NCBI GenBank assembly: GCA_030835125.1
Contig: JAUQWM010000063.1
Span: forward strand, 186,001 to 250,000
DNA: 64,000 nucleotides
Direction: 5' to 3'
Origin: Gemmatimonadaceae bacterium
GTDB taxonomy: Bacteria; Gemmatimonadota; Gemmatimonadetes; Gemmatimonadales; Gemmatimonadaceae
The position numbers and the translations under genes are program-made. The notes under the pieces were generated by a model. The model had not been told where the DNA came from. It did no database searches and was given only the letters and a program-made list of their open reading frames with translations. Positions 9,001 to 16,874 of the stretch are shown here, one piece after another (positions within the stretch are counted from its first letter, which is position 1; the number at the start of each line of letters is the position of its first letter).

Positions 9001-11646
9001 CTAGCGGGAAGTCCGGCCCTGCGCACCGGCGCGCAACGTCGCGGCCCAGTTGTAGACCACGACGACCTGCTCGCCCTTCCCCGGCACCGGACGCAGCATC
9101 AGGATGGATTGCCCCTCCCGCGACACGTCGAAGGTGGCATGCCCACCGCCCGACACGAAATCTCCCGCGAAGAGCGTCTCCTGCCGCGTCACCTTGAACG
9201 TCGGGCTCACCGTCACCGTCGCGGCCAGCATCTGGCTTCCACTCGGTGCCACATTCGTGAAGAAGATCCTGCCTCCGTCCCGGGACCAGACGGGGTTGAC
9301 GCCGCCGCCAACGGATACCGGAATCTCGGCGCCGGGGCCCGGGAATGGACGCACGTACACCTCGTTGCTTCCCGATTCATCCGACATGTAGGTGATCCAG
9401 CGGCCGTCGGGGGAAAAACTTGGCGCGAATTCATTGAACCGACTCGTCGCGATCCCGTGTTCGGTCGTGTCACCCGTGACGCGCCGGTATCGGAGGTCGG
9501 CTTCGCCGACGGTGCCGGTCCGGTACACCACATGGTTGCCGTCGGGAGAGAGCACGCCTTGCCAGATGTTCCGTCCCGGTGATGCCGTCAACTGCACAGC
9601 CGCTTCGCTGGCGTCGACCGGTAGCCACCAGAGCGTGCCGTCCGCACCGACCCGGTCGGTGCGATACAGGAGCCGCTCGCCGTTCCAGCTCCATTCCGGG
9701 CGGGTGTTCTGCGTTCCCTCGGACGTCACCCGTCGTACGGCACCGGACGCGATGTCGTAGAGGTAGATGTCCGTTCGTCCATCGGAGATCGCCTCGACCG
9801 CCAGTCGGCGTCCGTCCGGGGAATAGCGCGGCGACCTGAACGCCCCCGGCGGCATTGGCAGCTGCCGCATGCCGCCCCGAAGGTCGCTTTCGACCACCTG
9901 CACGAGACTCGTTCCCGTGAGGTACGTGAGCGTGCCGTTGAGCGAGAGGCCGACCTTCGATTCGCCGGTGGCCCGGTTCGTCAGCACGTCAGGCACGACG
10001 ACGCGCGCACTCCCTGTCACCCGTCCCGCGCGCGAATCAAACGGGGCGGCCATGAGCGCCCCATCCTGGCGGGCAAATACCAGGTCGTTGCCGGCGATGC
10101 CGACGGGGTAGGAACCTTCCACGCCGACGTCGGCGGTGCGCCCGGTCGACAGGTCGGTGATCCTCAGCTGGCCGTTGTCCAGCAGGATGGAGGCATGGAC
10201 GACGAACCGTCCGCCCGGGAGCACCACGGGCCAGAATCCACGCGTCGTGTCGCCAGGCGCGAGCGGCCCTGGCGTGCCTCCGTCGACGGGAACGAGCTTC
10301 AATCGGCTGCCGGACGATACGACGATGCCACGAGGACCCCAGCTCCCGCCCCGCAAGGACGAAACGCCGGCGAGCGGTGTCGGTGTCCCGCCTTCGACCG
10401 GCATCTTGAACAACTGGTTCCCCCTGGCGAAGCCGAGCCAGAGTCCGTCCGGCGAGAAGAACGGTGTTGCCCCCCCCTCGGCGCCGGGCAGCACGGTCGT
10501 TGCCGCCTCGCCGAGCGCGCGTGCGAAGAGGCGCCTGCGGCCGAGGCTGTCGACGGCCGAGTAGACGATGAGCAACCCGTCGGGCGAGACGGCCACGTTG
10601 CTGCCGATCGTCCCCCCCAGTGGCAGGCCACTGCCAGCCGAGAACTCGAACTTCACCGTCACCGGCTGCTCGGCACTCCGCGAGTCGATCCATGCGGTGG
10701 CGGCCGCCGACGCGACGATCGCGAGGAGCGTGACGCCGACGAGCGTGGGGATGGAAACCGAACGACGCCCGCTGGCACGCGCCGCGATGCGCGAATGCGA
10801 CCCGTGGGTGTATCCCGGATTCCCGAGTGCCTCCGCGAACCTCGCGGCGCTCTCGAACCGGTCCGCCGGGAGCTTCTCGAGCGCCCGAGCGACTGCTGCC
10901 GCCACGTTTGGCGGGACCGCCTTCCGGAGTTCGCTCACCGGCCGCGGTGTGTCGGCGATGATGCGCATGATCGTCTGCTGCGCCGAGCCCCCTTCGTGCG
11001 GCGGCACGCCGGCGAGCATCTCGTACAGCACGCTCGCCAGGGAGTAGACATCCGAGCGGGCCGTGATCTCCTTCTCCGCCGTCGCCTGCTCGGGACTCAT
11101 GTAGTGCGGCGTCCCCAGCGACAGCCCGGTCTCGGTCATGCGTCCGCCGGCGGCGGCGCTCACTGCCAGCGCGATCCCGAAATCAGCCACCATCGGGCGA
11201 CCGTTCGCGAGGAGGATGTTCTCCGGCTTGATGTCCCGGTGGATCACGCCCTGCGTGTGCGCGTAGTGGAGCGCGTCCGCCACGTCGGTCGCGATCTTCA
11301 CTGCCTCGTCCACCCCGAGCTGCGTCTCGCGGTTCAGCTTCTCGCGCAGCGTCTCGCCCTGGATGAAGGGCATGACGTAGTAGAGGAAGCCGTCGGCGGT
11401 CCCCGAGTCGAACAGCGGCAGGATGTGCGGATGCTGCAGCGACGCCGTCGTCGTGATCTCCTGCACGAACCGTTCGGCGCCTAACACGGCCGCGAGTTCC
11501 GGCTTCAGCACCTTGAGCGCGACCTTGCGCTTGTGCTTCAGGTCCTCGGCCAGGTACACGGTCGCCATCCCGCCCTGCCCGAGCTCCCGCTCGATCCGGT
11601 ATCGGCTCGACAGGGCCGCCTGCAGGCGCTCGGGAGGGTTGGTCAT
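9001..11646 (-). CDS. Ser/Thr protein kinase with C-terminal PD40/TolB-like propeller (paralogue)
   Basis: 881 residues, with the same plan as its neighbour: kinase domain with [26 protein letters not shown] and DFG. A membrane segment lies around VGVTLLAIVASAAATAW, then an extracytoplasmic PD40 propeller (SPDGLLIVYSAVD, SPDGLWLGFA, SPDGRWITYMSDESG). The kinase halves of the two genes are much more alike than the propeller halves, suggesting duplication followed by change of sensor. It is the first gene of the two-kinase unit. Just upstream is a REP-like palindrome. Confidence 0.9.
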   Translation of the reverse strand: MTNPPERLQAALSSRYRIERELGQGGMATVYLAEDLKHKRKVALKVLKPELAAVLGAERFVQEITTTASLQHPHILPLFDSGTADGFLYYVMPFIQGETLREKLNRETQLGVDEAVKIATDVADALHYAHTQGVIHRDIKPENILLANGRPMVADFGIALAVSAAAGGRMTETGLSLGTPHYMSPEQATAEKEITARSDVYSLASVLYEMLAGVPPHEGGSAQQTIMRIIADTPRPVSELRKAVPPNVAAAVARALEKLPADRFESAARFAEALGNPGYTHGSHSRIAARASGRRSVSIPTLVGVTLLAIVASAAATAWIDSRSAEQPVTVKFEFSAGSGLPLGGTIGSNVAVSPDGLLIVYSAVDSLGRRRLFARALGEAATTVLPGAEGGATPFFSPDGLWLGFARGNQLFKMPVEGGTPTPLAGVSSLRGGSWGPRGIVVSSGSRLKLVPVDGGTPGPLAPGDTTRGFWPVVLPGGRFVVHASILLDNGQLRITDLSTGRTADVGVEGSYPVGIAGNDLVFARQDGALMAAPFDSRAGRVTGSARVVVPDVLTNRATGESKVGLSLNGTLTYLTGTSLVQVVESDLRGGMRQLPMPPGAFRSPRYSPDGRRLAVEAISDGRTDIYLYDIASGAVRRVTSEGTQNTRPEWSWNGERLLYRTDRVGADGTLWWLPVDASEAAVQLTASPGRNIWQGVLSPDGNHVVYRTGTVGEADLRYRRVTGDTTEHGIATSRFNEFAPSFSPDGRWITYMSDESGSNEVYVRPFPGPGAEIPVSVGGGVNPVWSRDGGRIFFTNVAPSGSQMLAATVTVSPTFKVTRQETLFAGDFVSGGGHATFDVSREGQSILMLRPVPGKGEQVVVVYNWAATLRAGAQGRTSR

Positions 11647-12247: not shown

Positions 12248-13101
12248 CGCGGCATCCGCTTCAGCCGACGCAGTTCCACCCGGCGAAACTCCACCGGATG
12301 ACCCTCGCTCTGGAGGGCGATGTACCCGCCGGTCAGGGGACGACCATCGACTTTCTGAGCCGGATCGTGGCCCTCCACGTTGCCGCCACCCACCCGTGGT
12401 GCGGAATAGGTGAGGACGGTGTCCCCGTTCACGATGTGCCTGATCACGGAATCGCCGAGGACGATCACCTCTGCGCGTACCCACTGGTCGCCGTCGAAGG
12501 TCGGGGACGTGGAGTTGACGCAATGACCGCGGACGGTCTCGCCATGCATCGTCACCTCGGTCCCCGGTGAGCACATGTTCGCTGTGGGACGCGACCTGCC
12601 GTCACCCAGGCCGCCGAGGAGCTGCAGCTCGATCGAGATCGGGAAGTCCTGGCCCTTCAGCATGGTGCGAGGGTCCTGTGCGTGCAGCATCGCACCGCTG
12701 TTCCGTCGCGCCCATCCCGGCGTATCCGCAAGCCAATCGCCGGTGAATCGGTACTCCAGTACGAGGTGGTAGTCCTGGAAGGGCTGCTGGTAGAACAGGT
12801 GGCCGAACTGTCCCGAAAAGGACTGGTAGCCGTCATACGACACCTTCAGCACGCCATCCTCGACGCGGAAGGTGTTGGCGAAATTGTCGCCAGGTTCATG
12901 CCCCGTGATCTTCACGATCCAACCCGAGAGGTCACGGCCGTTGAAGAGGCTGATCCATTCCCCGTCGGGCTGCTGCGCGTTGGTTGCCCCCGGCAGCAGT
13001 GCCAGGAGGGCCAGCACCATGGCGACGGCATGGCACCCGGACGCACGGGCCGAACGGCGGAGCGGTGTTCGTTGACGGTAGCGCAGGGCGTTCGGGGTCA
13101 C
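12244..13101 (-). CDS. Exported DUF1080 (3-keto-disaccharide hydrolase-like) protein
   Basis: About 285 residues from the GTG at 13101, whose GTGA overlaps the stop of the kinase gene. A basic N region and a hydrophobic stretch (VLALLALLPGATNA) then QQ suggest export; an ATG at 13020 would give a shorter leader. The mature protein starts with ISLFNGRDLSGW, the hallmark of DUF1080 domains, which have a concanavalin-like jelly roll and are often involved in periplasmic glycan turnover. Enzyme activity on keto-disaccharides is known for some members; for this one it is inference. Confidence 0.8.
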   Translation of the reverse strand: MTPNALRYRQRTPLRRSARASGCHAVAMVLALLALLPGATNAQQPDGEWISLFNGRDLSGWIVKITGHEPGDNFANTFRVEDGVLKVSYDGYQSFSGQFGHLFYQQPFQDYHLVLEYRFTGDWLADTPGWARRNSGAMLHAQDPRTMLKGQDFPISIELQLLGGLGDGRSRPTANMCSPGTEVTMHGETVRGHCVNSTSPTFDGDQWVRAEVIVLGDSVIRHIVNGDTVLTYSAPRVGGGNVEGHDPAQKVDGRPLTGGYIALQSEGHPVEFRRVELRRLKRMPR

Positions 13102-15704
13102 GGAACGATGCCCGGCAGGTCGGCCAGCCACACATCACCGCGCGAGTCAACCCGCTTGCACGCCGCGCGCGGCTGGGCCGCCGCAATGGCGACGGTACCA
13201 CCGACACAGGCCGCCGGCAGCGACATGACGAGCGTGACCCCGGCAGGGTCCTCGCGGACCCGCCAGAGTTGCGGGGGTTCATCCGCCGCGCGGACGGTCG
13301 TCACGAAGATCGTCCCGTCATTCGTCCAGGAGAGCGCCCGCGGCACCATGCCACCCTCGAACCGGTGCAATGCGCGGAACCTCCACTCTCCAATCGGCGT
13401 CACTCCAAGAATCACCGACCCGGGCGAGACCACGACCACGGCCACCAAGGCTCCGTCGGGGCTCGTCGCGAGCATCGGGGCGAGCGACACCGTGTCGGGC
13501 GTGTCGATGACGGTCTCCGTACCATTCAGGGAGTCCAGCGTGACGAGGCGCCCCTGCCTCAGGTAGACCAGCGATCGCGCCCCGGCGAAGTGCGGGGAGG
13601 CGGCGCCGCTTCGCTGACCCCACGGCATCGTCCTCGACGCGCGCGTTGCGATGTCGACTTCCCGCAGGATGATCCCGGAGGGTGACGAGTAGCCGAACAC
13701 CAGGCGCCGGTGGTCTCTCGAAACCGCCACGTCAAAGAAGCCGCCCGGATACGGGTCGGCACGCAGGGCCTCCTCCTCGTCCGGAAGCACCAGGGTATAC
13801 AGGTTGTCCCCGACCTCGTCACCGCGAAGGTAGTACAGTCGGCGGCCGTCCGGGGCGATGGCCGGATTGCCGTACCAGGTCGTTCCCGTCGTCCGTTGCC
13901 TGGCCGTCGTGGCGTCCCCCACATCGAACGTCCACAGGTCGATCGTGATCACCCCGGACACCAGGACCACGCGGCCGGTGCGGCGAGCCACGTCGAACTG
14001 GCCAAGGAGGATCGCCGAGACCTTGGGCATCAATACCGTCGGCGTGCCGAGTCGGCCCGCGCCGTCCACCGGGAATCGTTCGAGGTCGTCTTCCTTCACG
14101 GCAAGCGCGCGAAAAACCATCACGCCTTCGCCATCGGGAGTCCATCGCACGGCCTGCCTGAACGCACCCCTGGCTGAATCCACCGCCACACCGTTCCGGC
14201 CGATCAGCGTCAGGGTGGAGTATTCCGCGACGACGGCGAGCCGGTTGCCATCGGGCGACCATCCAATCTCGGACACATCCCGCTTGCCAAGGGCGGCAGA
14301 GTCGCCGACCTCACCGGTAGCGATCGACACGACCCGCGCGACCTGCTCCCCGGTGCGTGGATCGCTCCGCACGACGACGACCGAGTCCGCGCTGGCGTGC
14401 GTATCGAACACGCCGGCCTCACCAAGCGGCCGCGGGACGCCGCCAAGCCGGGGGACGACGTACAGGCCACGGCGGACGGAGTCGAGGCGCGCGACGACCA
14501 CCAGGGACTGACCGTCGGCCGTCCACCGCGGTGCGCTCATGCCGGTCACGCCGCGCAACACCTCGACCGGCCGGGAGTTCACCACGCCCTGTACTACCAG
14601 CGACTGCGGGCAGGTGACTTCGCTCTCGAGTGCGCACTTCTGTTCGACGAACGCCACGAACTCGCCATCGGGGGAAATGGCGGGCCGGATCGACCGGCCA
14701 TTGAACGTGAGCTGCGTGCTGGCCCGGGTCGTGACGACCGCCCCCGGCGCCCGCGTGAGGAACACGGCGCTGGCGATCGCCCCCCCCGCCACGAGGCCCG
14801 CCACGAAGACCAGCCGACGGTCGGGACCCTTCCGGCCGATCGGTCCCGCGGCGACACCGGGCCCGGTCGCCAGCACCGGCGCGGTGAGCGCCGCCGCAAA
14901 CTCCGCCAGCGTCCCGAATCGGTCCGCGGGCAGCTTCTCGAGAGCGGTGAGCACCGCGGCCTCGACGGCCGGGGGAACCCGGTCGCGCCGGCCCCGCATC
15001 GGCGCCGGCCGCTCTGACAGCACCTTGGCGACGATCGACTGGGCCGTGGGACCGGTGAACGGCGGCTCGCCGAGCAGCATCTCGTAGAGCACGCACCCCA
15101 GCGCGTAGACGTCGGACCGGGCGGTGATCTCGCGCTCGCCCATCGCCTGCTCGGGGCTCATGTAAGTCGGCGTGCCTAACGACATCCCGGTCTCGGTCAT
15201 CCGCGTCCCGGCGGTGCTGCTGGCCGCCAGCGCGATCCCGAAGTCGGCGACCAGCGCGTGGCCGTCGTGCAGCAGGATGTTCTCGGGCTTGATGTCGCGG
15301 TGGATGACCCCGTGCCCGTGCGCGTAGTGCAGCGCCCCGGCGACCTCGCGCGCGATCCGCACCGCGTCGTCGATCGGCAGCTGCTTCTCGCGCTGGAGCC
15401 GGTCGCGGAGCGACTCGCCCTCCACGTACGGCATCACGTAGAACACGGACCCGTCCACCTCGCCCGAGTCGTGCAGCGGCAGGATGTGCGGGTGCTGCAG
15501 GTTGGCCGTGGTCCTGATCTCGGCGAGGAAGCGTGCGCCCCCGATGACGGCCGAGAGTTCCGGCTTCAGCACCTTGATCGCGACCCTGCGCTGGTGCTTC
15601 AGGTCCTGGGCCAGGTACACCGTCGCCATGCCACCCTCTCCGAGCTCGCGCTCGACCTGGTAGCGGTCGGCCAGAGCTGCCGCGAGGCGGGAGGAGGAGG
15701 TCAC
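13098..15704 (-). CDS. Ser/Thr protein kinase with PD40/TolB-like propeller, first gene of an operon
   Basis: 868 residues from the GTG at 15704 (translated [16 protein letters not shown]); the frame extends to 15848 but the extension has no homology to the paralogues. Kinase motifs are [29 protein letters not shown] and MSPEQ. A membrane segment lies at [19 protein letters not shown], then an extracytoplasmic PD40 region ([25 protein letters not shown]). It is coupled by GTGA/ATGA overlaps to DUF1080 and DUF3830 genes, so a sensor kinase is co-produced with an exported glycan-type protein. Confidence 0.9.
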
Positions 15705-15838
15705 GGCCCGCAAGATGCGTCGGGTCGCGCCCAGCCGCGAGGTAGGGATCAGGCCCCCGTCGCGAAACCGGCATTCCCGTCCGGTCCGATGGGCGTCGCG
15801 CGCTTGACGAAGCACCCGCCACTCATTCGGTTTGATTC

Positions 15839-16288
15839 GTGACCTCACCCCCGATTTCCATCCGGACGTACGACGTCGCGGCGCGCACCACCGACGTCCT
15901 CGGCAGGATCCTCTGCAGTGCGCGCAACCACCAGTTCATCGTCGACGGTCCGGTGCAGAATGGCTGTCCGGGCGAGGAACTCACCCCGCCGGAGGTGTTC
16001 CTTTCCGCGGTCGCCTCGTGTGGCGTGGAACTGGTGGAGGTCATTGCGCGCGACTCGTCCGTTCCCATTGGTCCGGTGAGCGTCACCGTCCACGGAATCG
16101 TCGACCGGTCGAAGCAACCCCGCCCGGACGTCACGCTGTTCAACACGATCCGGATGGACTTCCTCGTCCGGGGGACCGACGGCGCCTCGGCGGCCGCGCT
16201 CGTCGAGGGCTTCAAGCGTCGTTGACCCCTGTACGGCACGGTCGCGGTCGCGACCGAAGACGTGACGGTGACGGTCCGGACGGAGTGA
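15839..16288 (+). CDS. OsmC-family protein with in-frame UGA, probable selenoprotein
   Basis: 149 codons plus stop if the UGA at 16223-16225 is read as selenocysteine, with start GTG at 15839. OsmC/Ohr-type proteins reduce peroxides using two cysteines. The first is present in VASCGVEL. The second lies in a C-terminal C-P-x-x-G/N-T motif; here the frame reads FKRR, UGA, PLYGTVAVATEDVTVTV. The reading frame is the same before and after the UGA, and it stops 1 bp before the ATG of the next gene. A hairpin at 16239-16256 fits a bacterial SECIS. The base after UGA is C, as in many Sec codons. Alternatives are a Cys-to-stop mutation (pseudogene) or a sequence error. A TTGACG at 15802 could be a -35 element; no clear -10 is seen. 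Confidence 0.75.
16239..16256 (+). promoter_or_regulatory. Candidate bacterial SECIS element
   Basis: A perfect 7-bp stem CGGTCGC/GCGACCG closes a 4-base loop GGTC. The loop starts 20 nt after the UGA at 16223-16225, within the 16-37 nt window usual for bacterial SECIS elements. The loop sequence GGUC matches the SelB-contact loop of the E. coli fdhF element. It lies inside the coding sequence, as bacterial SECIS elements must. Confidence 0.65.
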
Positions 16289-16289
16289 G

Positions 16290-16874
16290 ATGACCGCGCC
16301 GGTGCCGGCGACGCCCAGGCCCAGGACTCGCGAGGGCGCCGCACTTATCCTCATCGCGCTCGCATCGCTGCTCTTCCAGCAGTCGGCCATCCGGTCGTGG
16401 GCCGAAGCCACGACGGGCGACGGCACGCGATACGAGATCTCGCCCATCGGGCTGGCGCACTTCGCCCCTGGCGCCGCGACGCCCACCACCGAGTGCCGCT
16501 GGTGGCCACGAGTCGGCAAGGCGGAACTCTGCGCCCCTGCCCCGGGCGCGGAAGGCAGGCTCGCCGCCATCCGACGGGCCTATCCCATGGTGGTGGCGGC
16601 GCTCTGGAGCGCTGTGCTCGCCCTGTTCCTGAATGCGCTCCGGGTCCCGCGTCGGTGGCCCTCGATCGGCGTGGTCGTGACGCTGGTCTCCGTGGTCGCG
16701 TCGGTGGTGGCCATCCTGGCGCTCGCCTCAGGCGCCGGCGCACTGTCGGTCGTGGCCGGTCTCGCCCTGCGACGGTCGGTCCCGGGATTCACGCTCGTCG
16801 CCGGCGGCACCGCATGCGTCACCGCGGCCTCGCTGCTCCTGGTATCTTCCGGGAGGTTTCGCCGGGAGTCCTGA
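16290..16874 (+). CDS. Multi-pass membrane protein of unknown function
   Basis: 194 residues. The ATG is 1 bp after the stop of the OsmC-like frame, suggesting one operon. There is one hydrophobic segment near residues 18-33, a polar extracytoplasmic part with two Cys (TECRWWPR, ELCAPAPG) that could form a disulfide, then three hydrophobic segments between about 96 and 188. I do not recognise the family. The spacing suggests a role tied to the redox protein upstream, but nothing in the sequence proves this. Confidence 0.6.
   Translation: MTAPVPATPRPRTREGAALILIALASLLFQQSAIRSWAEATTGDGTRYEISPIGLAHFAPGAATPTTECRWWPRVGKAELCAPAPGAEGRLAAIRRAYPMVVAALWSAVLALFLNALRVPRRWPSIGVVVTLVSVVASVVAILALASGAGALSVVAGLALRRSVPGFTLVAGGTACVTAASLLLVSSGRFRRES

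Follow-up and report, generated by a model that had tools for sequence, protein, structure and literature searches.

In Ohr/OsmC proteins, the first cysteine of the catalytic dyad is the peroxidatic one. Both cysteines are required for function (PMC8945050). Selenocysteine (Sec) has already been described in this fold: an OsmC-like selenoprotein with a UxxT motif was reported in the Sargasso Sea and GOS surveys and also appears in two reviews (PMC1088965, PMC2398784, PMC13188914). One of these reviews, the 2026 prokaryotic inventory, counts occurrences of the same domain with different Sec positions as distinct subfamilies and contains PF02566 in the UxxT form only (PMC13188914). The locus studied here lies in a window of 64,000 nucleotides from a Gemmatimonadaceae bacterium. 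Its protein resembles the UxxT selenoprotein in its OsmC fold (PF02566) and in the single Sec predicted in a redox motif. The two differ in the position of this residue: the UxxT form is read, from its motif, as carrying Sec at the first Cys, whereas the window protein keeps the first Cys and would have Sec at the second, in the motif RUPLYGTV. The sequence-only reading of the window had referred to the OsmC-like selenoproteins of the metagenomic surveys. These do exist, but they are a different protein from the one encoded here.

The gene extends from 15839 to 16288 on the forward strand and comprises 149 codons plus a stop. It starts with GTG, with an in-frame stop two codons 5′ of the start and no obvious Shine-Dalgarno-like motif ahead of GTG 15839. 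The sole in-frame TGA ahead of the stop is codon 129 (16223-16225, forward strand), and the residues PLY follow it. The sequence-only reading had described an OsmC-type frame that stays in phase across this TGA and ends 1 bp short of the next ATG. Both statements were borne out, as the frame is open over its whole length and closes with a second TGA, the true stop, at 16286-16288 on the forward strand, 1 base before the ATG at 16290. Under plain translation table 11 the frame terminates at codon 129. Standard annotation would truncate the protein at 128 residues and thereby remove the second catalytic residue. The same termination is what speaks for the UGA being a genuine stop, with a 128-residue product devoid of the second Cys and a downstream frame that is a mere relic; such a product would, however, be deprived not only of this Cys but also of the last strand of the fold (residues 141-148). 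A 916-residue frame on the opposite strand (13098-15848), which by eye resembles a serine/threonine kinase, shares 10 bases with the 5′ end of the OsmC gene. On the other side of the gene, the next frame (16290-16874) gave no Pfam match.

Translated with read-through of the UGA, the protein matched the Pfam OsmC model PF02566 at 37.3 bits (cut-off 27.5) over residues 45-136, and the match hence spans codon 129. Cys61 (codon TGT, 16019-16021, forward strand) is the first OsmC Cys and presumed to be peroxidatic. Alignment A4 shows no variation at Cys61 or at residue 129 in 22/22 homologues, and with Cys61 at the first position throughout, the family lies outside the UxxT type. A third conserved cysteine, Cys43 (codon TGT, 15965-15967, forward strand), belongs to an NGCPGE/NQCPGE motif that is invariant at this Cys in the full-length UGA forms; the close Cys forms have this residue too, but L097, L099 and L100, the distant Cys forms, lack it. 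When the family profile was aligned with Ohr structures, Cys61 and residue 129 fell on the two Ohr cysteines, residue 129 being matched to the VCP-motif Cys of Ohr 9jx6. An AlphaFold2 model (pLDDT 87) found OsmC and Ohr entries as its best Foldseek matches. The superpositions were loose (rmsd mostly 10-15 Å), and the model therefore does not fix the exact geometry of the Cys61/residue 129 pair.

The window protein thus has the fold and the two-Cys dyad in common with the Ohr/OsmC hydroperoxide reductases (TIGR03561, TIGR03562), from which it differs by the putative replacement of the second Cys with Sec and by the extra Cys43. TIGR03561 scored 14.1 bits against a cut-off of 88.85, and TIGR03562 was absent from the NCBIfam match list of the protein. 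The best NCBIfam match was NF041052 (OsmC_like_Se, "OsmC-related (seleno)protein"), which spans most of the domain; the score of 22.9 bits, where the cut-off is 95, places the protein outside this family as defined, and all 22 members of the present family likewise match it only weakly.

The UGA form was found in 11 of the 179 genomes of the same family (G000, G082, G118, G117, G079, G108, G013, G105, G106, G154 and G151) and the Cys form in 2 of the 179, so that the distribution among close relatives is scattered. Further copies of the UGA form came from a Gemmatimonadaceae MAG (MAG_27; L024), whose gene is identical to that of G082 (L028), from an Acidobacteria MAG (L025) together with three more genomes of its phylum (L093, L095, L096), and from an Actinobacteria MAG (L026). 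The phylum labels of L025 and L026 are those of the MAG titles; misbinning of a single MAG is possible, yet in the L025 phylum the gene is present in four genomes. A partly masked relative from the L026 phylum (L102) has the TGA as well as a hairpin with the loop GGAC.

Codon 129 is TGA in 16/16 distinct full-length UGA forms, never TAA or TAG, and in the six aligned Cys homologues it is TGC (four) or TGT (two). The latter are L038 and L039 of genus g32, L089 from another family of the class, and the three distant forms named above, which are from the L025 phylum and about 40% identical. An alignment with Cys-containing homologues, the comparison that the sequence-only reading had put forward, therefore places Cys on a position that is conserved as UGA elsewhere. 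Relatives with assorted stops and decayed downstream sequence, as a relic would leave behind, were not seen: TGA alone occurs and the sequence after it is intact. The post-UGA frame is conserved across three phyla and codon 129 is never another type of stop, which argues against a genuine stop. In an unrooted tree of the 22 sequences, the UGA and Cys labels require three changes. Within one genus, the Cys pair L038/L039 clusters, at a support of 86/86, with the UGA forms L036/L037.

Downstream of the UGA, the transcript can form a SECIS-type hairpin, CGGUCGC-GGUC-GCGACCG (16239-16256, forward strand), with a 7-bp stem and the loop GGUC at 16246-16249. The loop begins with 20 nt separating it from the UGA, and the minimum free energy (MFE) is −13.1 kcal/mol. 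These values lie within all published limits for bacterial SECIS elements, namely a loop of 3-9 nt, a stem of 4-16 bp, a G in the first two loop positions, a distance of 16-37 nt from the UGA and an MFE of −7.5 or lower (PMC13188914). The hairpin had been noticed in the sequence-only reading, as had the C directly after the UGA; the former was recovered at the coordinates given here, and the latter is present in every full-length UGA form. An Rfam scan of the region returned no match above gathering scores. Folding of the single sequence was only mildly unusual, with a z-score of −2.3 for the hairpin alone and −0.8 in a 43-nt context, a weak statistic on which no conclusion is based. When a sequence was recoded at random with synonymous codons, all seven pairs survived in about 9% of trials, for which reason one sequence alone is unconvincing.

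Comparison across the family was more informative. Seven pairs were counted, columns 18-24 with 27-33, the first and last base of the loop being taken as a pair. All 112 of 112 cells of this hairpin form standard pairs across the 16 UGA forms, and double-sided, compensatory changes occur in 4 of the 7 pairs (10 cells). As the 16 sequences are kin and not 16 independent trials, these compensatory changes are the better evidence. The innermost counted pair is G-C in 11 UGA forms and A-U in 5; one C-G pair is U-A in both L036 and L096, which belong to separate parts of the tree; the outermost counted G-C is C-G in L093; and in L096 the stem is still kept although Val is replaced by Leu and Thr by Ser. 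The covariation score of the hairpin was 0.335 versus 0.149 ± 0.023 in shuffles, with none of 500 as high, and sliding the register destroyed it. Synonymous differences are also about half as frequent in this segment as in the rest of the gene: codons 134-139 differ in 0.26 of pairs versus 0.58 (sd 0.13) elsewhere, the comparison set being 64 further codons that are at least four-fold degenerate, and 0 of 100,000 random six-codon sets were as low. Two Cys forms were compared, the TGC forms L038 and L039; no more than 2-3 of 8 pairs are left in them, and the hairpin is lost. A chance hairpin can thus be excluded, because 7/7 pairs are kept in 16/16 UGA forms with compensatory changes and are lost in two TGC forms. 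The covariation also stands against a relic frame behind a genuine stop. Together with the position of L038/L039 among the UGA forms, the loss of pairing is consistent with a replacement of Sec by Cys in this lineage, after which the hairpin may have decayed.

The sequence-only reading had further pointed to selA, selB, selC and selD, and all four were found in the source genome (4.48 Mb, 99% complete). The tRNA-Sec gene (selC) scored 69.8 bits, in agreement with ARAGORN, which gave the anticodon tca; SelB scored 336, SelA 545 and SelD 365 bits, the last with an in-frame TGA at its CAGUAAK site. The genes selC and selD adjoin on one contig. SelD of this genome (L018; contig C59 of G000, 10457-11377) is itself a selenoprotein, with the motif RCAGUAAKLG, and because its in-frame TGA occupies this canonical site, the genome contains a second gene with a Sec-UGA. 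The genomes of L025 and L026 likewise gave a tRNA-Sec above cut-off. None was found above cut-off in the carrier genome G082, which is 72% complete, or in G434 (the genome of L024), which equals G082 in size and gave a similar match list; the gap in G082 probably reflects missing sequence. Within the family, a strong tRNA-Sec match was seen in about 104 of 179 genomes by hand count, including 10 of the 11 with the UGA form, and this co-occurrence gives supportive but weak evidence.

With the Sec machinery present in the genome as a further argument against termination at codon 129, we regard a genuine stop as highly improbable, and UGA 129 is almost certainly decoded as Sec. It is very probable that the decoded position is the second Cys of the dyad in a protein of the OsmC family. 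We also weighed and dismissed a sequencing error, decay of a stop codon and a changed genetic code, as 16 full-length genes from three phyla have TGA at one and the same codon. The identical TGA in 16 genes makes a sequencing error very unlikely, and a changed code was also rejected on the ground that the same frame ends on TGA as its true stop. In the preferred interpretation, the hairpin 20 nt downstream would direct the ribosome to insert Sec at UGA 129, with SelB, tRNA-Sec, SelA and SelD supplied by the cell itself. Sec129 would then be the second, C-terminal residue of the OsmC dyad, with Cys61 retained as the first.

The earlier claim that this peroxidase uses selenocysteine is accordingly to be divided. 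Its Sec part is supported, and more strongly than originally put forward, by the machinery, the exchange of TGA and Cys codons and the covarying hairpin, while the peroxidase part is read from the fold. Since characterised Ohr/OsmC sequences share little identity with the protein and AlphaFold/PDB entries superpose on it loosely, the activity is one that we infer. An organic-hydroperoxide-type reductase is most likely, and a redox or peroxide function can be assigned with fair confidence. Some members of the OsmC superfamily have no known function, and this protein, far from the Ohr and OsmC models with NCBIfam scores well under their cut-offs and with an extra conserved Cys43, could instead be a thiol/selenol transferase or a handler of sulfur species acting through Cys61, Sec129 and Cys43. 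We consider this unlikely in view of the retained OsmC dyad and of the MsrA gene that follows in two genomes. MsrA (PF01625, 228 bits) lies directly 3′ of the second-Cys OsmC gene at L108:3434-3976 (reverse strand) and L109:4454-4996 (forward strand), in two genomes of genus g21, an arrangement consistent with oxidant defence.

For a hydroperoxide reductase of this kind, Cys61 would attack the peroxide and become a sulfenic acid, which Sec129 would resolve by formation of a Cys61-Sec129 selenenylsulfide. A cellular dithiol may then regenerate the pair; it could be a lipoylated protein, as it is for Ohr, or a different one. No operon partner was common to more than 3 of 18 neighbourhoods, so that gene order does not name the reductant, for which a dithiol is our suggestion. 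Selenols are better nucleophiles, and Sec is the attacking residue in many selenoproteins. The roles could thus be swapped, Sec129 attacking the peroxide and Cys61 resolving, and the invariance of both residues in alignment A4 is compatible with this. The peroxidatic role of the first Cys in Ohr/OsmC, the need for both Cys (PMC8945050) and the usual dyad retained by the Cys forms of the family speak against the swap, which we regard as possible but rather doubtful. A resolving rather than attacking Sec129 is the assignment towards which we lean.

A search of the phylum with NF041052 revealed a related group of genes. Sister family f2, of the same order, has 13 OsmC genes (L067-L079, e.g. L070) in which an in-frame TGA occupies the first Cys position. 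Their scores on this model are about 39-54 bits (cut-off 95); they have the first-Cys motif GAUTSMTIALYA and variants of it, keep the second Cys in KCPVHRTL, and possess a conserved hairpin of their own after the UGA, of the type UCGCGC-UGUAU-GCGCGA. The phylum thus holds candidate OsmC selenoproteins of both kinds, first-Cys and second-Cys, and the window gene is of the latter.

A second-Cys OsmC selenoprotein would be new: it has no entry in the 2026 inventory (PMC13188914), although a mention elsewhere in the literature is possible. A literature search for "resolving selenocysteine" returned no result, and OsmC goes unmentioned in the main text of deep-Sep (PMC12013277). The gene probably represents an undescribed subfamily of OsmC peroxidases in which Sec has taken the resolving position, and with a sister lineage in the phylum that has Sec at the first Cys. 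If true, nature would here have set up a test of the advantage that Sec brings to either residue of a single catalytic dyad. As a single phylum contains both Sec placements as well as Cys-only homologues, the question of why Sec should resolve in one case and attack in the other would become directly askable.
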